Source: a virus
Direction: 5' to 3' (one strand)
Virus record (IMG/VR): IMGVR_UViG_3300036046_000003
Span: 1 to 64,000 of that record
DNA length: 64,000 bases
Shown piece by piece: positions 16,043 to 63,022 of this stretch. The notes beneath the pieces are model-generated. The model had not been told where the DNA came from, ran no database searches, and saw only the letters and a list, made by a program, of their open reading frames with translations. Each line of letters opens with the position of its first letter. Within the stretch, counting starts at the first letter, position 1. Made by a program: the position numbers and the translations under genes.

Positions 16043-17218
16043 ATGGAAGAGCAGTTTCGGCCCGCCGCTGTAGAAGCATTTGAGCGTTCGCTGGTTGAAC
16101 AGAACGCACCCCTCATTGAGAGCTGGAAGCACGTACTCGATAGCGACAAAGCACCTGTTGTTAAGGGCGCGTATAGTCGATACGCCCTGGCGCGTCTGCT
16201 GGAAAGCACAAACAGGGTACTGGCCCGCGAGGCGACGCAGACGACAACCGTTTTTGGTACGAACTACCAGAAGACGATGCTGGGTATGACCCGCCAGATT
16301 TGGCCCCGTATGTTTGGTCAGCAGCTTGTGTCGGTTCAGCCGATGGATCGTCCCACCGGCCAGATTTTCCACCTGGCACTGACCCGCGATGACGGTTCGA
16401 CCGAGGGAGTGCGGCCCACGGACGACGCTTCTACGTGGAACGCCAGCCGATACGGCGTTTCACGCACCTACAGCGACCACACGACCGGCGAGGGGGGCGA
16501 AATTCAGAAGGGTATGGCCCTTTCGATCACTAGCTCCTCGGTTGAGGTTACGAAGGTTAAGAAGCTAAAGGTGGCGGCCAGCTGGGAGCTTGAAACCGAC
16601 CTGGCGGCCTACCACAACCTGAACGCACTGGATCTGTTGCAGGGCGCGGCTACTGACCAGATCGCCTACGAGATTGACGCGGATATTGTGCGCGCCGTTC
16701 GCAACGCGGCCATTGCGCACCGGACGGTTACGTTCGGCCCCGCGCCTTCCGGCTATCCGGTTGAGAAGTGGCCCACCCGTTTGCAGCGGGCCATTCTTAT
16801 GGCTGACCGCGCCGTTAACAAGGCCAGCCTGCGTCAGCCGAACGTTATGGTGGTCGGCTACGACGCAATGACCGAGCTAATGGATTTAAACACCTTTATC
16901 TTCGCACCTGCCCCGGGTTGGGATCAGGGTAGCTACGGCCTTGTGCCGGTGGGTTCGTTTAACGGCGTTTACAACGTCTTCCTGAGCCGGACGATCCCCG
17001 ACAACGAGATTTTGCTGGGCCGGAAGGGTAGCGGCTTTTTGGACGCGGGTATTGTCTACGCGCCGTATGTGGCGCTGTTCATTACAGACCGCTTCTTTGA
17101 CGTAGAGACGCAGAAGACGACGCAGAGCTTCGCCAGTCGTTATGACCTGTTTACTATGAGCAACACGAGCTACGCTCGCGTGGTACTTGACCCGAATGCC
17201 CCTGCTGGAATTGCCTAA
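16043..17218 (+). CDS. Major capsid protein, T4 gp23-like
   Basis: The protein has 391 residues; the ATG has AAGGAG upstream. The block RQIWPRMFGQQLVSVQPMD followed by RPTGQIF is the hallmark of the T4 gp23 capsid family. The chain is shorter than T4 gp23 (about 520 residues), as in simpler members. It forms the icosahedral shell and is expected to be matured by the protease encoded just upstream. The long gene-free end is followed by a promoter and a terminator. Confidence 0.93.
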   Translation: MEEQFRPAAVEAFERSLVEQNAPLIESWKHVLDSDKAPVVKGAYSRYALARLLESTNRVLAREATQTTTVFGTNYQKTMLGMTRQIWPRMFGQQLVSVQPMDRPTGQIFHLALTRDDGSTEGVRPTDDASTWNASRYGVSRTYSDHTTGEGGEIQKGMALSITSSSVEVTKVKKLKVAASWELETDLAAYHNLNALDLLQGAATDQIAYEIDADIVRAVRNAAIAHRTVTFGPAPSGYPVEKWPTRLQRAILMADRAVNKASLRQPNVMVVGYDAMTELMDLNTFIFAPAPGWDQGSYGLVPVGSFNGVYNVFLSRTIPDNEILLGRKGSGFLDAGIVYAPYVALFITDRFFDVETQKTTQSFASRYDLFTMSNTSYARVVLDPNAPAGIA

Positions 17219-17258: not shown

Positions 17259-17266
17259 ACAAACAG

Positions 17267-17309
17267 AAGGAGCCGATACCTACCTGGGTGTCGGCTCCTT
17301 TTGTTTTTC
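17267..17309 (+). terminator. Intrinsic terminator after the capsid gene
   Basis: AAGGAGCCGA (17267-17276) pairs with TCGGCTCCTT (17291-17300); TTGTTTTT follows. It ends capsid mRNA, but also lies just downstream of the promoter at 17226. Confidence 0.85.
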
Positions 17310-17328: not shown

Positions 17329-17664
17329 ATGCGCGGTGTGTATCAAATCACAGTCAAACGACCGGACAAAGAAGAATTAGTGTACGTAGGCCAAGCAAAG
17401 AACGTCCGTTCGCGATTTAACGCCCACCGGCGCGGCCTTGTGGCGGGCAGGCACGCGAACAAACACCTTCAAAACGCCTACGACAAATACGGGGCGCGTG
17501 CCTTTTCTTTCACTTTGCTGGAGCTACTGGACGCCGTAGAAGATATGACGCTGTACGAGGCGGAATGGTTCGATACGTTAGTGACGCGCTATGGACGACA
17601 AAACGTAGCCAATCACTACCGACCGGGCGCGCTGCCTGTCGGCAAAGTAAAAGAGGCCGCCTAA
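17329..17664 (+). CDS. GIY-YIG endonuclease
   Basis: The protein has 111 residues; ATG follows AAAGGAG. GVYQI and YVGQA match the GIY and YIG strands; NVRSRFNAHRR supplies the catalytic Arg and the following helix; YEAEW supplies the metal-binding Glu. There is no separate DNA-binding module, so it resembles short free-standing homing-type nucleases that sit in phage structural clusters. Its stop overlaps the next start (TAATG). It may be a mobile intruder behind the capsid gene. Confidence 0.85.
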   Translation: MRGVYQITVKRPDKEELVYVGQAKNVRSRFNAHRRGLVAGRHANKHLQNAYDKYGARAFSFTLLELLDAVEDMTLYEAEWFDTLVTRYGRQNVANHYRPGALPVGKVKEAA

Positions 17665-18455
17665 TGGCTAGCATTCCTTTTGGGCCGGTGACGACCCGCG
17701 TACCTTCTGTTGATTGGCTATTGGAGTACAATCGCGCAGGTCGCTTTTCCGCCGCGCTGGTACGTACCGCCCACGGAGTTGACGGCGGGTGGAACGAGAA
17801 AAACCGGCGCGCCCTTTTGCGCGGCGTTGAAACCGTAGTAGTCGGCTCCACCAACGGCGACCCCTCGTATGGTGGTATCGCTAAAAAGTTCTGGTATCCC
17901 GAACCTGCTGCAACCCTGGCAGAGCTTCGCCCGTGGCTGCGTTTGCGGCCTACGCTTACCGTGAAAATTGGTAACGAGCCGGACGTAATTTGGGAGCAAT
18001 TGGGCCAGGACGAAAAACATTGTTGGGTTTATCACTACTTTCTTGATCAAACGATTACTGATATTCGCGCTGAGTTCCCGCAAGCTAAAATCATCGCCCC
18101 CGGCCCCCGCATCGGTACGCCGAACTGGCATCGCTGGCTCGAAATTAGGGCCGACGTTTACCGGCGATGCGACTTTGTAGGTCTACACGTATACGGGTGG
18201 TGGCAGATTGTAGGCGACGGAAAGCGCGAGCTAGAGACGGCGCTGCCGGTATACAATCGTTTGTTCCCCGACAAGCCTATCTGGATTACGGAGCTAGGCA
18301 TTAACGCGGGCGCGCTGTCGGCTCGTGAAAAGCTGGCACGCTATCGAGCTACCTTACCTTTGCTGCCGTCCCGCGTAGCGGGGGTGGCTTTCTATAATGT
18401 ACATACGCCTGCGGAGTTTCACACGGAATACGCCATTCCGCGAGAGGCATTGTAA
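17664..18455 (+). CDS. Glycoside hydrolase-like (clan A barrel) protein
   Basis: The protein has 263 residues. GNEPD (about residues 108-112) matches the acid/base Asn-Glu of clan GH-A enzymes, and WITELGIN (about 206-213) carries a likely nucleophile Glu at the end of a strand. HVYGWW fits an intermediate strand. Such enzymes cleave beta-glycosidic links. Placed between the capsid gene and two glycosyltransferases, it may act on host surface polysaccharide or on virion glycans. It has no signal peptide. The exact GH family cannot be assigned by eye. Confidence 0.7.
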   Translation: MASIPFGPVTTRVPSVDWLLEYNRAGRFSAALVRTAHGVDGGWNEKNRRALLRGVETVVVGSTNGDPSYGGIAKKFWYPEPAATLAELRPWLRLRPTLTVKIGNEPDVIWEQLGQDEKHCWVYHYFLDQTITDIRAEFPQAKIIAPGPRIGTPNWHRWLEIRADVYRRCDFVGLHVYGWWQIVGDGKRELETALPVYNRLFPDKPIWITELGINAGALSAREKLARYRATLPLLPSRVAGVAFYNVHTPAEFHTEYAIPREAL

Positions 18456-18470
18456 AAGAAAGGAAACCTA

Positions 18471-18575
18471 ATGGACGGCTGGCTACTCGTGGTCACATTG
18501 GTGTACGTGGGTATTTTGGTGGTCGGTATTTTCGCATTGGCCGACACCAAAGACGTAGATACGCGAGACGAGTAA
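18471..18575 (+). CDS. Tiny single-pass membrane protein
   Basis: The protein has 34 residues; ATG follows AAAGGAAA. After MDGW comes a hydrophobic span of about 22 residues, then a charged tail KDVDTRDE. The clear binding site and the fit into a 120-base gap between genes support it as real. The role is unknown; holin-like or membrane-anchor functions are possible. Confidence 0.6.
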   Translation: MDGWLLVVTLVYVGILVVGIFALADTKDVDTRDE

Positions 18576-18600
18576 TACCCGGGGCGGTGTAATTCGCAGA

Positions 18601-18629
18601 AAAGCAGCCCTTCGCGGGGCTGCTTTTTC
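18601..18629 (+). terminator. Intrinsic terminator before the glycosyltransferase
   Basis: AAAGCAGCCC pairs with GGGCTGCTTT around a TTCGCG loop, then T-run. The next gene's AGGAGG is about 12 bases later. Confidence 0.85.
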
Positions 18630-18650
18630 GTGCGCAATAAAGGAGGGCGC

Positions 18651-19877
18651 TTGTTTACAGTAACCTACACCGGGCCGGGGGTTTACGGTATTCCTGGGAT
18701 TGGAGAAGTGCTTCCAGGTCAGCAGTTTGCGGCTGCCCCAAATTTGCTACCTTGGCTAACCTCGAAACCCGATATTTTCTCTGTGGAAACCGACACCTAC
18801 GCCACGTTAGCTGAAAAGCGCCTGGGCTACTTTGGCCCGGTTTCGGCGGCCTTTGGGTACGGTGGGGCGGGTATTACGATTTTGCGGGCACTTTCGTTGC
18901 TGGACTACGAAGCCCGCGTAGCGCCGCACTACGCCGATAGCGCGCAATGGGGGGTTGTCAATACAACCGATCTACCTGCGGACGCGGCTATACAAATCGC
19001 ACACCGGGATTGGCTGCCTGAACTTGATATAGTTCATTGTTTGCCGGACGATCTGCCCCGCGCTAAGGCAAAGCGCCGCGTTATGTGGACGATGTTTGAA
19101 AGCGACCGCGTACCTGACGGCACTATTTCCGGCTTTGGCAACTGGCCGGAGCTTATTAACCGGGGTGCGGAGCGGCTAATCGTCCCCTGTCGGCACAACG
19201 CAGAGGCTTTTGCAAACGGCGGGGTCGAAGTCCCAATTACAGTAGTTCCTTACGGACTTGATACGGACGTATGGCCGTATATGGAGCGCCCCGAACGCGA
19301 TACGTTTACGGTGGTGCTATTCGGAGACCTGACCAATCGAAAAGGGCCGTTTGAGGCAGTAGAAGCGTTTCAATTGGCCTTTCCGAACGAGCGTAACGTC
19401 CGGCTTGTCTTGAAAACGCAGCACGGCGTACTTGGAAACCGTATGCGCGTAATCCCCACTTTCGCCGACACCCGCATTTCTGTGGTGTCTGAGACCTGGA
19501 CGCGGGCACAGTTAAAAGCTTGGCTGTACGACGCGGACTGCTTTATCTGGCCGAGCCGGGGGGAGGGTTGGGGGCTTTGCCCGCTCCAAGCAGCGCTTAC
19601 CGGGCTTCCCCTAGTAACAACTACGCATACGGGTATGGCCGAGTGGTACAACCCCCTTTACTTCTACGGGATTAAGGACTCCGGCACAAGCGAAAGTCCA
19701 CTCGGCGGTCTTTGGTTTGAGCCGGACGTAGAAGACGCAGCCTTTCAGTTGCGGTCGGTTTATGAAAATCGCAAGAAAGCGCTATCCAAAGCAAAACGCG
19801 GAGCCGCTTACGTCAGGAAAAACTTTAGCCTGGAAGCGTTCGCGAGGCGTTTAGGTTCGCTCCTCACAGAACTTTAA
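18651..19877 (+). CDS. Glycosyltransferase (GT-B, family 4-like)
   Basis: The protein has 408 residues; TTG 18651 is chosen because AGGAGG precedes it. VVPYGLDTDVW, then FGDLTNRKGP (start of the C-terminal Rossmann domain), then WPSRGEGWGLCPLQA match GT4-type enzymes, which transfer sugars from nucleotide-sugar donors. The first about 60 residues look like a small beta domain resembling phage neck or tail proteins (YTGPGVYGIPG). In the virion gene cluster it probably glycosylates a structural protein. Confidence 0.85.
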   Translation: MFTVTYTGPGVYGIPGIGEVLPGQQFAAAPNLLPWLTSKPDIFSVETDTYATLAEKRLGYFGPVSAAFGYGGAGITILRALSLLDYEARVAPHYADSAQWGVVNTTDLPADAAIQIAHRDWLPELDIVHCLPDDLPRAKAKRRVMWTMFESDRVPDGTISGFGNWPELINRGAERLIVPCRHNAEAFANGGVEVPITVVPYGLDTDVWPYMERPERDTFTVVLFGDLTNRKGPFEAVEAFQLAFPNERNVRLVLKTQHGVLGNRMRVIPTFADTRISVVSETWTRAQLKAWLYDADCFIWPSRGEGWGLCPLQAALTGLPLVTTTHTGMAEWYNPLYFYGIKDSGTSESPLGGLWFEPDVEDAAFQLRSVYENRKKALSKAKRGAAYVRKNFSLEAFARRLGSLLTEL

Positions 19878-19902
19878 AAGACGCTCTTTTGCTGGGGAAC
19901 GT

Positions 19903-20511
19903 ATGAACGACCGGCTATCACTTCTTATTGTCGCCCACAACGAAGAGGCGCTTCTAGCCGAAGCTATTCTGGCAGGGCGCGTGTACGCAAATGAAGTTGT
20001 AGTAGTAGTGCAACAGTCCAATGACCTTACCCTCAAAATCGCCTGCGAGCTGGCCGACACCGTGCTGGAACAGCCGAAAATGGGGGGCTGCGAGTTTAGC
20101 CGCAAAGCCGGAATTGAAGCCTGCCAGGGGGCCTGGGTATTGCAGCTAGACGCAGACGAGCGGCTAACCGACTACGGTCAGTCGCAGTTGCGAACCCTCC
20201 TGCGCGCCCCCAACACCGCTTATGCCCTGCGCCGCGTAACGACCGTAGACGGCCAGCTTATCGAGGACGCCTACCATCTGCGGCTACTTCGACCCGACCA
20301 ATGGGACGGGGACTACTTGACGGTACATCGCGCTCTTGGGGTAAACCACACCATTGAGGTAGGCACGGTGGGCGCTTTGCCAGTGATTGACCACCACAAA
20401 AGCGGCACGCGCCAGGCCGAGGCCGACGAACGTTACCGCCGCTACGGCTATACACGAAGCGAGGCTCGCCCCGAGTGGGCAAATATCGCCTGGACGGTGC
20501 GGCATAAATAA
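19903..20511 (+). CDS. Glycosyltransferase family 2 protein
   Basis: The protein has 202 residues. LLIVAHNEE at the start, then QLDADE (the DxD metal site), match GT-A family 2 enzymes. It is short, keeping the catalytic core. With the GT4-like gene upstream and the GH-like gene it forms a carbohydrate module inside the head cluster. Virion decoration is the likely purpose; the acceptor is unknown. Confidence 0.85.
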   Translation: MNDRLSLLIVAHNEEALLAEAILAGRVYANEVVVVVQQSNDLTLKIACELADTVLEQPKMGGCEFSRKAGIEACQGAWVLQLDADERLTDYGQSQLRTLLRAPNTAYALRRVTTVDGQLIEDAYHLRLLRPDQWDGDYLTVHRALGVNHTIEVGTVGALPVIDHHKSGTRQAEADERYRRYGYTRSEARPEWANIAWTVRHK

Positions 20512-20521
20512 GGAGGCTACT

Positions 20522-20770
20522 ATGGAGTTTGAAGGCATTACGGAGTATACCTACACCGAAGCAGACGTTCGCCGTCTGGACGCGACCTTTACCTATCACG
20601 AACCAAAGGGAGACCAGGCCCGCCGTTACGCCTTACTTCGGGCCAGCGCTCGCGCCTTTGCAGAAGCGATGCTGACGTATTGTCCGCCCTCTAGGGAGCG
20701 TTCCCTTGCGCTTACCGAGTTGGAGATTGCGCTGATGCAGGCAAACGCCGCCATTGCCCGAAACGAGTAA
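20522..20770 (+). CDS. Acb2-like cyclic-nucleotide sponge (anti-CBASS)
   Basis: The protein has 82 residues; ATG 20522 follows AAGGAGG. The C-terminal half (RRYALLRASARAFAE, CPPSRERSLALTELE, then MQANAAIARNE) closely resembles the helical Acb2 family as I remember it. Acb2 forms hexamers that sequester cyclic di- and trinucleotides and so blunt CBASS. If right, this gene is a defence antagonist carried in the structural operon. The assignment is from memory of the family pattern, without alignment. Confidence 0.75.
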   Translation: MEFEGITEYTYTEADVRRLDATFTYHEPKGDQARRYALLRASARAFAEAMLTYCPPSRERSLALTELEIALMQANAAIARNE

Positions 20771-20773
20771 TGT

Positions 20774-21151
20774 ATGGCCGAGGTGAACCTTACAATTCAA
20801 ACAAACGCAACGTTTGACCGGCTCTTCGTATGGACGAATACGGACGGGTCACGACGTTCGTTGGCGGGCTACAAAGCGCAAATGCAAGTGCGCAAAGCGC
20901 CCGGAAAAGCGCTGCTGCTTAACCTTACTAGCGCAGGGGGCGCAATTAGGCTAGAGCAGGACGACCACCAAAATAGCGTGGTGGGTGTGTTTCGCGTCGT
21001 AATACCCGCTGCGCTGACTGCAAATATACTTTCCACCGGGCCTTTTCCGTACGACCTGCGTATATGGGCTGACAATTCGCTACAAGAGCCTGCGTACCGT
21101 TTGCTGGAAGGGCTAGTCACCTTCGACGTAGGAGTGTCGATCAATGAGTGA
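20774..21151 (+). CDS. Virion-associated beta-sandwich protein, unknown
   Basis: The protein has 125 residues. It begins with alternating strands ([17 protein letters not shown]) and reads as all-beta throughout ([22 protein letters not shown]). This pattern is common in small phage neck, baseplate or decoration proteins. It overlaps the collagen-like gene start, so the two may assemble together. Confidence 0.55.
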
Positions 21152-22037
21152 CCCGGTTATTGTAGTGGCCCCCCCGGCAACCGTTTTAGCTGTGTCCGGG
21201 CCAACAGGAGCACAAGGCCCTGCGGGGCCTGCTGGGGCCGTAGGGCCTGCCGGGGCTGTAGGGCCTGCTGGTGCCGTAGGGCCAACAGGAGCACAAGGCC
21301 CACAGGGAGAACCCGGCCCTGCGGGGCCTGCTGGGGCCGTAGGGCCAACAGGAGCACAAGGCCCACAGGGAGAACCCGGCCCTGCGGGGCCTGCTGGGGC
21401 TGTGGGGCCACAGGGAGAACCCGGCCCTGCGGGGCCTGCTGGGGCTGTGGGGCCACAGGGAGAACCCGGCCCTGCGGGGCCTGCCGGTCAAACAGTAGCT
21501 GCGGGTCGGGCGCGGGTGTCAGGAGAAAACGCGCACTTAGGTTTGCCCGGTATTTTGTTTACTGGCGTAGGGACGGTCACGCTGGCCGCCAACCGGCTTT
21601 TGTACGCCCCGCTTGTGTTGCAGCATTCGCTGACCATAGACCTGCTTAGCGTAGAGGTTACTACAGCCGGGGCTGCGGGGGCGCTCATTCGTCTAGGTTT
21701 GTACCAGGCGGATATAGACAACCAACCAACAGACCTTGTGCTGGACGCGGGGGAAGTGGACGGCGCAAGTGTCGGCGTAAAGACGATCAGCGTAAACATC
21801 TCTCTTTCTGTGGGGCGCTATTTATTGGTGCTTAACACCAACGCAACCCCTACGTTGCGCACTTTTCGTTCTGGTTCGCCCTTTGTGAATAGCGTGCTTG
21901 GCGCGACCCCGTTTTTCTCGGCGCTACGTAGGTCGGGCACCACCTACGCGGTTTTTCCAGCTACCGGGGTCGGCTGGAACAACACGAGCGCGAGTAGCGT
22001 AGGTTTTGAACACTATATTCTTTTGCGGAGCCAATAA
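21144..22037 (+). CDS. Collagen-like virion protein
   Basis: The protein has 297 residues. About residues 18-115 are Gly-X-Y triplets ([19 protein letters not shown] pattern), built of DNA repeats that are near-identical at base level. The C-terminal about 180 residues form a globular beta domain, likely a trimeric head. Such proteins make fibres on phage virions. Repeat number should vary easily by slippage. Its stop overlaps the next start (TAATG). Confidence 0.88.
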
Positions 22038-24660: not shown

Positions 24661-24920
24661 GAACCTCACTGCGCGACACGCCCCTTCGCAAGTGCGAAGT
24701 AGAAGTACCCTACTCAGGTATACCCTTCTGGTTCTATCGCCGCTCCTGGGGCTTCCCAGGCCCCTTGTGGGGTCGCCTCGCCGGAACCCTTTACTTCCCG
24801 AAGTGGGCGTTGGAGGGAAAGAAGGTTCGGAATAAAGGGAACTGTACTAGCCTACACAACCCGAAGGGTCAGAGCGTGTCTTTGTGTTCTTCGGGCTTGT
24901 GTTGGGTAAACGAGGAGGGT

Positions 24921-24936
24921 TGTGAAAAGTATCACA
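24921..24936. promoter_or_regulatory. TGTGA-N6-TCACA palindrome in R2
   Basis: TGTGAAAAGTATCACA, extended to GGGTTGTGA/TCACAACCC. It matches the CRP-type half-site pattern, but followed by TATATATTTT it could equally be a terminator hairpin. Confidence 0.45.
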
Positions 24937-25305
24937 ACCCTATATATTTTCCGAGTTTCCCGCTTTGGGCCGCACAGGCCGACACTAGGCAGGGTAGGGG
25001 CAACACGTACAACTACGCGGGGCGCTAGCCGCGCCCCTGCACCCCCAGGCCCGTCTCGCTCCGCTCGACGGAAACGCTAACGCGTTTTCTAGAGGAGACA
25101 TACTCCTACAACCCCACCTCCCTAAAGGCCCTCTTAGTATACCAGTTAAAAACAAGTTAGTGGGACAAAAAGAGGGGTGAAAGAGGGCAGTTTGGGGTAC
25201 TTGTTTCGGTTTTGCCGCGTTCCAAAGCCAAACACACATTACAAAACTGTAATCGATTTTCTCATAAATCTCTTGACAAGGTTTTGGCGGAACGGGGCAA
25301 CGTTC

Positions 25306-25318
25306 TGCATTTACTGCA
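25306..25318. promoter_or_regulatory. Operator palindrome, site 5
   Basis: TGCATTTACTGCA closes repeat R2, 22 bp before the tail chaperone start. Confidence 0.7.
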
Positions 25319-25340
25319 CATCTCTTGAAAGGAGACAGTG

Positions 25341-31646: not shown

Positions 31647-31680
31647 GGGCCGTTTTCTTTTGAGAACGGCCCTTCTCCTA
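31647..31680 (+). terminator. Hairpin after the tape measure
   Basis: GGGCCGTT (31647-31654) pairs with AACGGCCC (31665-31672), then TTCTCC. The T-tract is weak. Confidence 0.55.
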
Positions 31681-31798
31681 GAATGACCTACAAGGGGGCT
31701 GGGAAGCTCCAGGAGCGACGATAGAACCAAAAGGGTACTCTGAGTAGGGTACGTCTACTTCGCAACTGCGGAAAGACGCGCCGCTTCTTCCAGAGTTC

Positions 31799-31811
31799 TG
31801 CATTAACTGCA
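31799..31811. promoter_or_regulatory. Operator palindrome, site 6
   Basis: TGCATTAACTGCA, 6 bp before a TGTGA-N6-TCACA palindrome inside repeat R3. Confidence 0.7.
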
Positions 31812-31817
31812 CAAGGC

Positions 31818-31833
31818 TGTGAAAAGTTTCACA
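31818..31833. promoter_or_regulatory. TGTGA-N6-TCACA palindromes in R3
   Basis: TGTGAAAAGTTTCACA; a second copy, TGTGAAAAGTATCACA, lies at 31976-31991. Both match a CRP/FNR-type binding pattern or short RNA hairpins. Confidence 0.45.
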
Positions 31834-32346
31834 ATCCAAATAGTTGAACAGAGAGGATCTTTAGGAGAGAGTTCTCGGAAGAGCGGGAGCTGGAATAGCC
31901 TACACAAGCCCGATAGGGCGAGTGGGGATCTTGTCCTCTTGTTCTTCGGGCTTGTGTTGGGTAAACGAGGAGGGTTGTGAAAAGTATCACAACCCTATAT
32001 ATTTTCCGAGTTTCCCGCTTTGGGCCGCACAGGCCGACACTAGGCAGGGTAGGGGCAACACGTACAACTACGCGGGGCGCTAGCCGCGCCCCTGCACCCC
32101 CAGGCCCGTCTCGCTCCGCTCGACGGAAACGCTAACGCGTTTTCTAGAGGAGACATACTCCTACAACCCCACCTCCCTAAAGGCCCTCTTAGTATACCAG
32201 TTAAAAACAAGTTAGTGGGACAAAAAGAGGGGTGAAAGAGGGCAGTTTGGGGTACTTGTTTCGGTTTTACCGCGTTCCAAAGCCAAACACACATTACAAA
32301 ACTGTAATCGATTTTCTCATAAATCTCTTGACAAGGCGAGGAGCCA

Positions 32347-35421: not shown

Positions 35422-35453
35422 GGCCCACTCCGTTCGGGGTGGGCTTTTTCTTT
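35422..35453 (+). terminator. Intrinsic terminator before the tail fibre
   Basis: GCCCACTCC pairs with GGGGTGGGC around GTTC, followed by TTTTTCTTT. The fibre start is at 35463. Confidence 0.85.
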
Positions 35454-35462
35454 GGAATACTT

Positions 35463-38072
35463 ATGAGTTCTATTTCGCAGCTAGACCTTGTACTTTTAGG
35501 CCGACGAGGACTAACGGCTCGCCTGGGTGGGGTTGAACGCGCCATTCGTGACCTTTCGTTGGGCGTCGCACAAGAGGCAGTAGGCGCGGTTACGGGGGTG
35601 CGCCCTAATCTCCTTTCAAACGGCTCCTTCGAGTTCTACAATCGAGGCGAAACGAAACCAAACGAGTGGGCCGCGAGTGGTACGGTGTCTGTAGCGTCGG
35701 GGACGCTGGGCGCTGACGGTAGCGTGGTAGTGTTGCTTTCAGCGGGGGCCTCTATTAGTCAGTCTGTAGACGGGGGTCAACCGCAGAACGTTGGCGCGGG
35801 TACGCTGTCCCTGGCGGTTCGGGCCACCGCACCTGCGACAATTACGTTGGCGGTTAACCACAGCGCCGCCACAAGCGGGCCAATCATTCGGTTGGGGCTT
35901 GACGGGGTAGAGGTCGAAACAAACGAACATCCGGGCGACGGTACTTGGTATCGTTTCTTTCGGCAGTATCTCTTAACCGCCGCTGGTGCGGCTTCTGTGT
36001 CGGTGGGCTGCTCTGCCGGTTCTGTTGAAGCTGATGCCGTTAAATATGAGCGAGAAGACGGTACGGGTACGTTTATCGAACCCACGGCGTTTGTGGGAGG
36101 CGATTGGGGGGCTGCCGTCCAGCTACGCACCCTCAAAGCTGAGAATATTATTTCAGGCCAACTCACGGTTGGCGGGGCGGACAGTAACAACCCACGAATT
36201 AGCGTCCTTAACGGGGACAACGCCGAGATTGTGACGATAGGAGACCCTGCAAGTGGGTTTCTTGGTATTGAGGTTAAGGACGCGGGGGGTATGCGGGTGA
36301 GTGGCAGCGGAGACGTGGCCGTTGTCGGCGGGGGGCGTATTTACGCGGGTATGCCCGCCGGGGGGCGGACTGAGCTGGCCGCCGCCGGGTTGGCGGGCTA
36401 CAACGCGGCGAACGAGAAACAGGCGGAGCTGCAAAGCGCTACTGGTAAACTGCGCATTCTTGGGGTCGGCGGTCTGTCGGTAGAGAATGGGGCGTCCGTC
36501 GAAATTAAAGGCGGCGGCCATTTGCTTGTGGGTACGCCCGACGCGCAGCGTACCGAGGTTCGTAATTACGGGGTTGTTGGATACAACAACGACAACGAAG
36601 TTATTTTTGCGCTGAATGAGGCCGGTGTCGTCAATGGGGTCAACGTAGACGACGGCGATGTATTGATCGGCAACGCAGGCAACAATTACGCGCTTTGGGA
36701 TAATTCTGCGGGCGAGCTTACTATTGTCGGAACAGTAATCGCGGGCGAAGGTAACGTCGAAATAGGTACGGCGGGTGTTACCTTGCTGAGTAGCGGCGTT
36801 AACTACAACGCACGAAACGCCGTGACCTGGGTAACTGACCTTTCCGAACCAAATACGGACTTTCCCGTAGCTGTGGTTTTTGGTGGAAGGCAAGAGGTTA
36901 GCCAGACAAATCCACGGGTACGCAAAATTCTTGACCTGTACAGCGGGTCAATAAACGACGTGTTCTTCTCCCGCCCCGCCGGTAGCCCACAGGAAGACGG
37001 AAAGCTTACCTGTATCGCCATTGGCACAAAAGACGGCGGACAAGCCAGTGCGTTTTACGGCGCGTTTGCTGGTACTGCCGCAGAAATGATATTCCATTCA
37101 GTTGCGCGGCGTATTGAAATTGGCGGATCGGGCCTTTGTCGGAAAAACTCGACAAACACAAACCCGGCTTTTTTGCAGTGGGAAGCCGGGTTCGTAGAGT
37201 TGGGCGGAGAGGGCCATTCGGCGGGGGTGCGTACCCGTGGAACCCTCGACGTAAGAAAGCTGAACGCTGCGGGTGGTAGTAACGTTCAACTCGAAGGGCG
37301 CACCGCTCTCACCGACATAAACGACGGCTTTTTGCGGGTCAATCACGGCGAGCAGTACAGTGAAGGTGTTGCGGTGTCGGGCCGCTTACGCGCATTCGGC
37401 TGGCTCAGTGTCGGCAATGACGCGCTCAACTTCACACCCACCGGGTCTACCTGGGCTACAGGTGGGGCTACCTTACTCCTGAACGGCCTGGATACTACCT
37501 CGATTGTTTTCCACGACGCCAATAACCGCGTAGACGCGATTGTGGCGGGCGGGGGACTTCTGCGTATTGGGCCGGACATTGGCTTTGGCCCTGCGAATGT
37601 GGAGTTCTCAGGAACTACGGCATTCGGACGCGCCCCTGTTTCAAACGTCCGGGCGGTTATGTTTGCGACAACGAATGACAGTAACGGACATAGCCTGTTT
37701 TGCGCGAACAACGGCTGGACGCAAAACCACTTGTATATTCGCGGAGACGGCTTGCCCTGGGTCAATCAAGCCTGGGTTGTCGGTTCCGACGAACGCCTGA
37801 AAGAAGACATAGCCGACGTACCAAACGCCCTAGACCGTCTTCAAGGCGTTCGGCCCCGCTCCTACTACCTTCGAGCCGACGAGGCCCGTCAACGAAGGCG
37901 TCATTACGGCGTAGTCGCTCAGGAGTTGGTAGAGGTACTACCTGAACTGGTGTCAGAAGGGCAGGACGGCACACTGGCGGTGGCGTATGAAGAGCTGATC
38001 CCCCTGCTTGTGGGGGCCGTAAAAGAGTTGTCAGCGCGGGTTACAGCCCTTGAAGCGCGCCTGCGCTCGTAA
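35463..38072 (+). CDS. Tail fibre with S74 intramolecular chaperone
   Basis: The protein has 869 residues. ATG 35463 is preferred over the upstream frame start inside the terminator. The long shaft is built of repeated beta segments (VGGGRIYAG, VEIKGGGHLLVG). The C-terminus is a peptidase S74 domain: VGSDERLKEDI, then RHYGVVAQEL and a final coiled coil. S74 domains guide trimer folding and cut themselves off at the Ser of GSD. About 55 residues before it are shared almost exactly with the second fibre at 61487-63022. Confidence 0.9.
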   Translation: MSSISQLDLVLLGRRGLTARLGGVERAIRDLSLGVAQEAVGAVTGVRPNLLSNGSFEFYNRGETKPNEWAASGTVSVASGTLGADGSVVVLLSAGASISQSVDGGQPQNVGAGTLSLAVRATAPATITLAVNHSAATSGPIIRLGLDGVEVETNEHPGDGTWYRFFRQYLLTAAGAASVSVGCSAGSVEADAVKYEREDGTGTFIEPTAFVGGDWGAAVQLRTLKAENIISGQLTVGGADSNNPRISVLNGDNAEIVTIGDPASGFLGIEVKDAGGMRVSGSGDVAVVGGGRIYAGMPAGGRTELAAAGLAGYNAANEKQAELQSATGKLRILGVGGLSVENGASVEIKGGGHLLVGTPDAQRTEVRNYGVVGYNNDNEVIFALNEAGVVNGVNVDDGDVLIGNAGNNYALWDNSAGELTIVGTVIAGEGNVEIGTAGVTLLSSGVNYNARNAVTWVTDLSEPNTDFPVAVVFGGRQEVSQTNPRVRKILDLYSGSINDVFFSRPAGSPQEDGKLTCIAIGTKDGGQASAFYGAFAGTAAEMIFHSVARRIEIGGSGLCRKNSTNTNPAFLQWEAGFVELGGEGHSAGVRTRGTLDVRKLNAAGGSNVQLEGRTALTDINDGFLRVNHGEQYSEGVAVSGRLRAFGWLSVGNDALNFTPTGSTWATGGATLLLNGLDTTSIVFHDANNRVDAIVAGGGLLRIGPDIGFGPANVEFSGTTAFGRAPVSNVRAVMFATTNDSNGHSLFCANNGWTQNHLYIRGDGLPWVNQAWVVGSDERLKEDIADVPNALDRLQGVRPRSYYLRADEARQRRRHYGVVAQELVEVLPELVSEGQDGTLAVAYEELIPLLVGAVKELSARVTALEARLRS

Positions 38073-52993: not shown

Positions 52994-53010
52994 CTAGTAC
53001 GCCGCACTCG

Positions 53011-53023
53011 TGCAGTAAATGCA
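53011..53023. promoter_or_regulatory. Operator palindrome, site 11
   Basis: TGCAGTAAATGCA at the operon-proximal edge of repeat R4; the equivalent position in R2 holds site 5. Confidence 0.72.
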
Positions 53024-53392
53024 GAACTTTTCTCCGTTCCGCCAAAACCTTGTCAAGAGATTTATGAGAAAATAGATTACAGTTTTGTAATGTGTATTTG
53101 GCTTTGGAACGCGGTAAAACCGAAATAGGTACCCCGAACTACCTGCTTCTACCCCTCTTTTTGTCCCATTAACTTGTTTTTAACTGGTATACTAAGAGGG
53201 CCTTTAGGGAGGTGGGGTTGTAGGAGTGCGTCTCCTCTAGAAAACGCGTTAGCGTTTCCGTCGAGCGGAGCGAGACGGGCCTGGGGGTGCAGGGGCGCGG
53301 CTAGCGCCCCGCGTAGTTGTACGTGTTGCCCCTACCCTGCCTAGTGTCGGCCTGTGCGGCCCAAAGCGGGAACTTCGGAAAATATATAGGGT

Positions 53393-53408
53393 TGTGAAAA
53401 GTATCACA
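53393..53408. promoter_or_regulatory. TGTGA-N6-TCACA palindromes in R4
   Basis: TGTGAAAAGTATCACA here and TGTGAAACTTTTCACA at 53547-53562, the counterparts of the two copies in R3. The second differs in the centre but keeps both half-sites. Confidence 0.45.
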
Positions 53409-53568
53409 ACCCTCCTCGTGTACCCAACACAAGCCCGAAGAACACAAAGACCGCTCTAACCCTACGGGTTGTGTAGGCTATTCCAGTTCCCTCTTCTTCC
53501 TATAGCTCTCTCTCTTAAAGAACCTTCTCTGTTCAAGTATATGGATTGTGAAACTTTTCACAGCCTTG

Positions 53569-53581
53569 TGCAGTTAATGCA
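53569..53581. promoter_or_regulatory. Operator palindrome, site 12
   Basis: TGCAGTTAATGCA, the R4 counterpart of site 6 in R3. Confidence 0.7.
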
Positions 53582-53744
53582 GAACTCGGGAAGAAGCGGC
53601 GCAGTTTTTCGCAGTTGCGAAGTAGAAGTACCCTACTCAGGTATACCCTTCTGGTTCTATCGTCGCACCTGGAGCTTCCCAGGCCCCTTGTAGGTCATTC
53701 TAGGAGAGAGCGGCGACAGAGAGTAAACGCACGAGGAGGGGCAC

Positions 53745-58379: not shown

Positions 58380-58406
58380 CTATATCTCCGCAACCCGTCG
58401 CGTTTT

Positions 58407-58887
58407 AAGCCACTCTAGTGGCTTGCAAGCCGTTTTACCCCGGTAGTGCGCTCAAATCGGGGTTTAAGCCACTCTAGTGGCTTGCAAGGTCGCTTGCAGC
58501 CGTCGATTTTCACCGCCACCAGGCCCCAAAACGGGCTTTTCGTGCGTTTCCCTGGTGGTAGGCCCACAAAGAACGCCTCTCGGGGGCTGTCCCAAGAGGC
58601 GTTTTAAGCCACTCTAGTGGCTTGCAAGCCGTTTTACCCCGGTAGTGCGCTCAAATCGGGGTTTAAGCCACTCTAGTGGCTTGCAAGGTCGCTTGCAGCC
58701 GTCGATTTTCACCGCCACCAGGCCCCAAAACGGGCTTTTCGTGCGTTTCCCTGGTGGTAGGCCCACAAAGAACGCCTCTCGGGGGCTGTCCCAAGAGGCG
58801 TTTTAAGCCACTCTAGTGGCTTGCAAGCCGTTTTACCCCGGTAGTGCGCTCAAATCGGGGTTTAAGCCACTCTAGTGGCTTGCAAGG
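58407..58887. repeat. Perfect 199-bp tandem repeats with six palindromes
   Basis: Two full 199-bp units (58407-58605, 58606-58804) and a partial third (58805-58887). Every unit has two copies of AAGCCACTCTAGTGGCTT 59 bp apart: starts at 58407, 58466, 58606, 58665, 58805 and 58864. Between them lie hairpins ACCCC/GGGGT, CCACCAGG/CCTGGTGG and CGCCTCT/AGAGGCG. The units look identical base for base. The stretch is gene-free, flanked by the translocase and a membrane protein gene. Candidate centromere, transfer site or origin. Confidence 0.95.
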
Positions 58888-61377: not shown

Positions 61378-61486
61378 TCGAACGGGTCGGAATTGAACCT
61401 ATTGCTAGTCGTTATCTCCGTAGACCGCCGAGGGGCTATTCCCTCTTGTGGGCAACCTAATGCGGGTTGCGTATACGGAGGGACGA
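61378..61486. other. Gene-free stretch with a tRNA T-arm-like segment
   Basis: On the minus strand AATAGGTTCAATTCCGACC (about 61385-61403) looks like a tRNA T arm, but only three of five stem pairs form and no acceptor partner or D arm is found. A hairpin GAGGG/CCCTC lies at about 61431-61446. It could be an attachment-site relic near the integrase; I see nothing firmer. Confidence 0.25.
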
Positions 61487-63022
61487 ATGCCAGACGAGAC
61501 AGTCAACGGGAACCTTACGGTGACGGGGACGGTGTACGCCGATAACTTTAGAACAGCGGCGTCTGGTTTGCTTTCTATCGAAAAAGATAACGCTAAACTA
61601 AACCTGTCACGCAGCTCTAATGTTACAACGGCAAGCCTTAGTGTGGCTACTTCGGGCAGTATCGCGCTTGTCGCGGATAATGGAGAGACTATTGCTTCGT
61701 ATCGTGCTTTGGCACACCGCTTCTATTTGGGCGGCTCTGCGCAACCCTTTTTCATCGCGGATAACAACCGACTAGAGTATGTCACCTCCTATTACGACAA
61801 GTATAGCGTTACCGGCGATAATGAAGCCGGTCAGATTGAAGTAAACGCCGTAACAAGCGGAGGGGCAGAGGCGGTACTCCAATCATACGCTGCGCGCCAC
61901 GATTTTTTTGTTTTAGGCAACCACCGGGCTGCCTTTACCTCCGGATTAGAGCTTTATGGCGGGCAGGGAGCGGCCAGTGTCTCGGCGCGTAGTAATTCGG
62001 GTGGGGCCGCAATCCCGCTGGTGCTAAACGGCAGTGACGTTGCTGTTACTGCCCCTTTTAGTGCCCCGTCCGTGTTGGTTTTCGGCCAGGTCAGCGCTGG
62101 TAATCTAAGTACGGTTGGTTCGATTGCTGCGCCGGGTGTGCTTATCCAGAACCAAAATATCCAGGCAAACGGTTGGCTGGCCTCTCAGTCTTTGTCGGCA
62201 GACCAGCGGATTGAACTGCGATCTATTGACGGCGGTGGCGTTCGCGTTCGCGCCAGTAACTTTGCAAACAACGCGCTCCGTCCGCTAGACCTGGAAGCTA
62301 GTGTAGTGAGAACGCCAGGGTGGGTCTCTGTCGGAAGTGGCACACAGAACTATACGCCAACTGGCTCCACCTGGGCTACCGGCGGCGCTACCTTGCTGCT
62401 GAATGGCCTGGATACGACTTCGATTGCTTTTCACGACGCCAATAACCGCGTGGACGCAATTGTAGCGGGCGGCGGTCTGATGCGCGTTGGGCCGGATACC
62501 GGCTTTGGCCCTGCGAACGTTCAAACCTACGGCTTTACCGGCGCGGGCGGCGTTCCTCTTGCGAACCAGCGTATGCGCGTCTATTCTAGCGGCGATAACA
62601 GCGGTCACTTCCCTCTCGCCGTTGTGAATAGCGCAGGCAGCGCGGCGCTGATGTACGTTCGCGGCGATGGTTACGCCTGGACGAGCCAGCCGTGGGCTGT
62701 TGGCTCCGACGAACGCCTGAAAGACAAGGTTGAGCCGCTTGACGCTACCGCGCTAGAGAAGTTGGCCCAGGTTACGTTCCACCGCTACCAGCTTCGCGCA
62801 AACGGCCTCCCGCAAGTCGGGGTCATAGCGCAGGAGCTACAGCAGGTGTTCCCTGAACTGGTGAGCGAACACCACGACCCGGCCAACCCGAACGAGGCAC
62901 CGCTGCTGGCGGTCAACTATCAGGGTCTCGCGGTCTACCAGGGAGCCGCAATCCAGCAACTCGCCGCAAAGGTTGCGGGCTTGGAAGAGCGTCTGGCCGC
63001 ACTCGAAAAGCGCTTTGCCTAG
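61487..63022 (+). CDS. Second tail fibre with S74 chaperone
   Basis: The protein has 511 residues; ATG 61487 follows GGAGGG (an earlier GTG at 61448 has no binding site). Beta-rich shaft, then a block of about 55 residues (YTPTGSTWATGG...GFGPANV) almost identical to the main fibre at about 37430-37605, then VGSDERLKDKV, VGVIAQEL and a C-terminal coiled coil, i.e. an S74 domain. It is a lone rightward gene among leftward genes, between the integrase and a strong terminator: a moron-like or alternative receptor-binding fibre. Confidence 0.88.
   Translation: MPDETVNGNLTVTGTVYADNFRTAASGLLSIEKDNAKLNLSRSSNVTTASLSVATSGSIALVADNGETIASYRALAHRFYLGGSAQPFFIADNNRLEYVTSYYDKYSVTGDNEAGQIEVNAVTSGGAEAVLQSYAARHDFFVLGNHRAAFTSGLELYGGQGAASVSARSNSGGAAIPLVLNGSDVAVTAPFSAPSVLVFGQVSAGNLSTVGSIAAPGVLIQNQNIQANGWLASQSLSADQRIELRSIDGGGVRVRASNFANNALRPLDLEASVVRTPGWVSVGSGTQNYTPTGSTWATGGATLLLNGLDTTSIAFHDANNRVDAIVAGGGLMRVGPDTGFGPANVQTYGFTGAGGVPLANQRMRVYSSGDNSGHFPLAVVNSAGSAALMYVRGDGYAWTSQPWAVGSDERLKDKVEPLDATALEKLAQVTFHRYQLRANGLPQVGVIAQELQQVFPELVSEHHDPANPNEAPLLAVNYQGLAVYQGAAIQQLAAKVAGLEERLAALEKRFA

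Follow-up and report, generated by a model that had tools for sequence, protein, structure and literature searches.

In T4 Acb2 (Vs.4), residues Y8 and K23 contact cGAMP and the Y8A substitution weakens binding, and the hexamer interface is formed by L29, A66, A73 and A77 (PMC10097602). The T68M substitution in the same protein also weakens binding (PMC12657230). Acb2 has been annotated in several actinophages, including Xandras gp101, BigBubba gp102 (named cyclic nucleotide sequestering protein, Acb2, where the function is an annotation only; PMC11953737) and Statler gp57 (PMC13348362). We found that an 82-aa phage protein is a member of the Acb2 family, in a widespread subfamily whose hairpin is short and whose pocket is modified. 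The Acb2 kind of protein, this subfamily and this type of genomic location are already known.

The gene lies in a 64,000-nt stretch, hereafter the window, taken from a virus record of 72,427 bp (bases 1-64000). The source is a temperate tailed phage. Its plus strand carries genes for a DNA polymerase, a serine integrase, the large terminase subunit, portal, head protease, major capsid protein, a collagen-like fibre, a tape measure and more tail proteins; primase and helicase genes are on the minus strand. A second contig was identical to the phage over 10.5 kb with no mismatch. Relatives of the terminase were only distant, in Thermus, Mycobacterium and haloarchaeal phages, the capsid protein matched only the identical contig, which is from the same virus, and two remote contigs, and the integrase had no relative in genome_contigs.

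Several repeats were observed elsewhere in the window. Three copies of a roughly 0.65-kb non-coding element, 92-95% identical, lie at 24685-25319 (+), 31674-32336 (+) and 53010-53707 (-), and a 137-nt part of the element is repeated at the window start (1-137). It contains a 26-nt inverted repeat with ATATATTTTCCG after it, ends near CTCTTGACAAGG and matched no Rfam family. At 58400-58887, a 199-bp tandem repeat with short internal repeats lies beside an FtsK/SpoIIIE-like gene. The tail-fibre-like genes at 35439-38072 and 61448-63022, although far apart, contain DNA stretches that are 79-83% identical.

The Acb2-family ORF is intact, with the translation MEFEGITEYTYTEADVRRLDATFTYHEPKGDQARRYALLRASARAFAEAMLTYCPPSRERSLALTELEIALMQANAAIARNE. 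It begins 10 nt after the upstream glycosyltransferase gene, and the next gene begins 3 nt past its end. The earlier note had placed it between glycosyltransferase and virion genes, and this arrangement stands, with the PF00535 protein upstream and the PHROG_1084 protein and collagen-like tail fibre downstream (Table 1). For the GT4-type glycosyltransferase, the TTG at 18651, which follows AAAGGAGG, makes a more convincing start codon than the GTG listed at 18630. Between the capsid and fibre genes, the region 17329-20511 contains a GIY-YIG endonuclease, a glycosyl hydrolase-like gene (PF11790 score just above cut-off) and two glycosyltransferases, and this insertion looks like an accessory-gene slot. 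The window also has a 34-aa ORF at 18471-18575 (+), which is below length cut-offs, lies behind AAAGGAAA and encodes one hydrophobic stretch, MDGWLLVVTLVYVGILVVGIFALADTKDVDTRDE.

Table 1. Features around the Acb2-family gene, in window coordinates.
Feature	Coordinates	Strand	Details
Major capsid protein	16043..17218	+	phrog_138, E 2.7e-41
Strong terminator-like hairpin after capsid gene	17261..17306	+	dG -35.6 kcal/mol, z -8.1
Terminator-like hairpin directly before the stretch with glycosyltransferases and Acb2-family gene	18600..18628	+	perfect 11-nt arms, dG -24.9 kcal/mol
GT4-type glycosyltransferase	18651..19877	+	PF20706/PF13692, phrog_2170
Family-2 glycosyltransferase, upstream neighbour	19903..20511	+	PF00535, E 2.2e-10
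Strong Shine-Dalgarno AAGGAGG, at stop codon of upstream glycosyltransferase gene	20510..20516	+	sequence
Acb2-family gene	20522..20770	+	82 aa, ATG start, TAA stop
Small PHROG_1084 protein, weakly like tail-fibre assembly protein, downstream neighbour	20774..21151	+	PHROG match
Collagen-like tail fibre protein	21144..22037	+	

An Acb2-like identity had been proposed from the signature CPPSRERSLALTELE...MQANAAIARNE, which is present in the translation. This identity was borne out by a significant full-length match to PF24729 (Acb2/Tad1 hairpin), by the Acb2 helix layout and by the retention of key pocket and interface residues. The PF24729 match scored 55.9 bits (E 4.9e-15), twice the curated cut-off of 27 bits, and covered profile positions 1-58 of 58 over residues 24-80; T4 Acb2 itself scores 71.4 bits over Vs.4 residues 7-83. 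The protein also matched PHROG_1454 (E 1.8e-19), whose function is unannotated, and had no matching model in NCBIfam or PADLOC. A single-sequence search of PDB gave no match. A profile of the family matched PDB entry 9ptq, 'Acb2 homolog 43', with E 2.5e-6, and Tad1 hairpins with 0.004. Profile-profile alignment against nine canonical Acb2 proteins (PaP2, AV002, VP882, T4 and others) gave E 4e-6 and 87% probability over a span from Y25 to the C-terminus; single-sequence alignment to T4 Acb2 alone recovered the C-terminal helix only, and not the N-terminal pairing.

Relatives were abundant. A tblastn search with the 82-aa protein found 105 phage records, a second family member as query raised this to at least 351 phage records with relatives, and more than 500 IMG/VR stretches had relatives, as did contigs of many bacterial phyla. 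None of the 14 control genomes was positive in the family search. Among the phage records listed, relatives were mostly labelled 'hypothetical', and several 'phosphomannomutase'; the latter label sits on a 70-aa protein of this subfamily (in H1, H8, H34 and numerous records of Paenibacillus/Brevibacillus phages) and is evidently a propagated misannotation. One relative of 178 aa (L063, 5746-6279) has a 100-residue N-terminal extension, containing GGYYVVYKDGYASFSPAEAFEEGY, fused to the hairpin. The extension had no Pfam domain above cut-off, and a search for the Tad1 N-terminal domain matched the hairpin alone.

The AF2 model, built from an alignment of 38 IMG/VR relatives, had a pLDDT of 87.8 and helices at 13-22, 32-53 and 58-81. 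As modelled, this is the layout of an Acb2 protomer: a short helix and two long antiparallel helices. VIA-align to T4 Vs.4 (7uq2) gave Z 5.5 and rmsd 2.6 over 56 residues, and Acb2 8h2x and Tad1 7uav gave Z 4.6 and 4.4, scores that unrelated helical bundles equal. The range ends of the 7uq2 alignment pair the same residues as the sequence methods. Since a Foldseek search of the model against PDB found nothing significant and many proteins have helical hairpins, structural similarity taken by itself proves little; the predicted fold is consistent with Acb2. The 23 residues before the hairpin have no beta strand in the model. Tad1, which has the hairpin motif in common, was considered as an identity and rejected because there is no beta domain.

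In the profile-profile alignment, Y25 pairs with PaP2 Y11 (T4 Y8), R40 with K26 (K23), R58 with PaP2 R67 and T65 with PaP2 T74 (T4 T68). The exchange of lysine for arginine at R40 is conservative. Among 73 relatives, Y25 was kept in 72, and R40 and T65 in all 73. The peptide patterns by which relatives were collected do not cover these three positions, so selection does not account for their conservation. The T4 interface residues L29, A66, A73 and A77 correspond here to F46, A63, A70 and A74. A63 was conserved in 70/73 relatives and A74 in 69/73, and the conservation of residues 54-63 and 72-79 is partly a selection effect of the fetching patterns.

Other contacts have changed. Where T4 has the cGAMP contacts R79 and F82, this protein has A76 and A79, and T4 H11 and S74 are likewise replaced. 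R79 (R85 in PaP2) is invariant in the nine canonical Acb2 proteins, and the F82 counterpart is also alanine in PaP2 Acb2. Because of that alanine, and because the Acb2-annotated BigBubba gp102 lacks a counterpart of R79, R79 and F82 are not family-defining, and their loss bears on the expected ligand range rather than on membership. Judged by its residues, the pocket would be related to that of T4 but not identical, and since R79 and F82 are not kept, its ligand range may differ.

We consider it probable, at roughly 77%, that the protein is an Acb2-type sponge, likely a hexamer that holds cyclic dinucleotides and lowers a CBASS-like second messenger. Each protomer would consist of the short N-terminal helix and the two-helix hairpin, with the hexamer assembling through small alanine-rich helix faces. 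Pockets between protomers, including Y25, R40 and T65, would hold cyclic dinucleotides and perhaps cyclic trinucleotides too. The free second messenger of CBASS or similar signalling defence would thus be lowered without degradation, and the effector would stay off. The earlier note had described the family as sequestering cyclic oligonucleotides; of its Acb2 reading the family assignment holds, and sequestration and a block of CBASS follow presumptively from membership, with the pocket changed at R79/R85 and F82. An SMODS nucleotidyltransferase was found in 7/50 bacterial genomes with related genes, a count that is uninformative.

It had also been argued that the gene, lying within the structural operon, would be expressed late unless another promoter served it. 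Late expression is plausible. However, the operon argument is too simple, because two terminator-like hairpins intervene between the capsid gene and the Acb2-family gene. A ribosome-binding site and start codon come no more than about 25 nt after each hairpin, a spacing that leaves almost no room for a promoter. A sigma-70 scan for a promoter of the Acb2-family gene found none where 2.2 were expected by chance, a result of little weight because the pattern may not apply in the phage's host. The hairpins may be read through, or a promoter missed by the sigma-70 pattern may serve the stretch from the glycosyltransferases to the Acb2-family gene; we infer that the gene is expressed together with the virion genes or later. 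Reviews report that capsid gene mutations help phages without acb2 to escape CBASS, and that Acb2 is active on prophage induction (PMC10419184, PMC12043709), so late expression would not in principle be a handicap.

The location itself, which the earlier note implied was odd, proved not to be so: elsewhere too, canonical Acb2 genes lie among head, tail or lysis genes. In Pseudomonas phage AV002, the gene of a canonical Acb2 homologue occupies this same slot, flanked by capsid and head-tail adaptor genes. The family gene follows portal in Vibrio phage 252E42.2 and Gordonia phage Schomber, follows the spanin genes in HK639, lies two genes after tail gene D in VP882, and in one of our relatives (L003) is between Mu-like head genes. 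In T4, PaP2 and Heath its neighbours are early or replication genes. Across 40 loci, the 148 flanking proteins repeatedly included DNA methyltransferases, terminases, ParB-like proteins, portals and minor head proteins.

This neighbourhood bears on whether the protein is instead a structural or assembly protein, perhaps a small accessory of the head or tail, and has the hairpin by chance. The gene does lie between capsid and fibre/connector genes, and some relatives are among head genes; a virion part, however, would keep one position, whereas this family is also found beside replication genes, methyltransferases and ParB-like genes, and a related PF24729 protein is an experimentally proven sponge (PMC10097602). 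We regard a structural role as very improbable. That the gene is a degenerate or non-functional relative of Acb2 carried along by hitchhiking is harder still to credit: position 73 has Q in place of the family's W and some pocket residues are unlike those of T4, yet Q73 occurs in other relatives too, the ORF is intact behind a strong ribosome-binding site, and all 10 subfamily-invariant positions are kept.

The choice of ligand leaves more room. A sponge of the same kind might mainly target the Thoeris signal gcADPR or type III CRISPR cyclic oligoadenylates, for example, and CBASS signals only secondarily. The hairpin motif SRExxxALTxxEEAxMWxN is common to Tad1, which binds gcADPR and cyclic nucleotides (PMC12043709), and the arginine of the T4/PaP2 dinucleotide pocket and F82 are missing. 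The N-terminal beta domain of Tad1, part of its gcADPR-binding dimer, is nevertheless absent from the model, and the nearest solved relative by sequence (9ptq) is named an Acb2 homologue; we find this alternative unlikely. Somewhat less doubtful, and still tentative, is the idea that the IARNE subfamily forms a branch of its own among hairpin sponges, intermediate in sequence between Acb2 and the hairpin of Tad1. It would have lost the arginine that contacts phosphate and the phenylalanine that stacks in T4 Acb2, and might use the conserved H26, R58/E59, N75 and R80 for a different signal, possibly one new to Acb2.

On the preferred reading, as an Acb2-type sponge, the gene gives this uncultured temperate phage a candidate counter-defence function. 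More broadly, a very common phage protein that many records label 'hypothetical' or, wrongly, 'phosphomannomutase' falls within the Acb2 family. Should the altered pocket reflect a different ligand, the range of defence signals known to be sponged by phages would grow with this large subfamily; otherwise the case is routine.

Among known systems, Tad1 (7uav, 8kbb-8kbh) has the common hairpin motif SRE...ALT..EEA.MW.N and, unlike the 82-aa protein, an N-terminal four-strand beta domain. The closest solved structure by sequence profile is 9ptq, and its aligned part lacks the FxYHxP start and IARNE end. Mycobacteriophage BigBubba gp102 is a fellow member of the IAR-ending subfamily, scoring 53.8 bits with the subfamily profile; its gene is in a replication and nuclease module, whereas ours is among virion genes. 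T4 Acb2/Vs.4 (7uq2) and PaP2 p26 (8h2j) have the same Pfam domain and a small all-helical protomer of short helix and hairpin, and their Y8/Y11, K23/K26 (as arginine), T68/T74 and interface alanines are kept here. In contrast, R79/R85 and F82 are not kept, the hairpin is about 20 residues shorter than in T4 Acb2, sequence identity to the two proteins is very low, and the subfamily has its own invariant motif, FxYHxPKxxQ...RY..(I/L)R...CPxSRE.SLALT.LE...WANA.IARNE.
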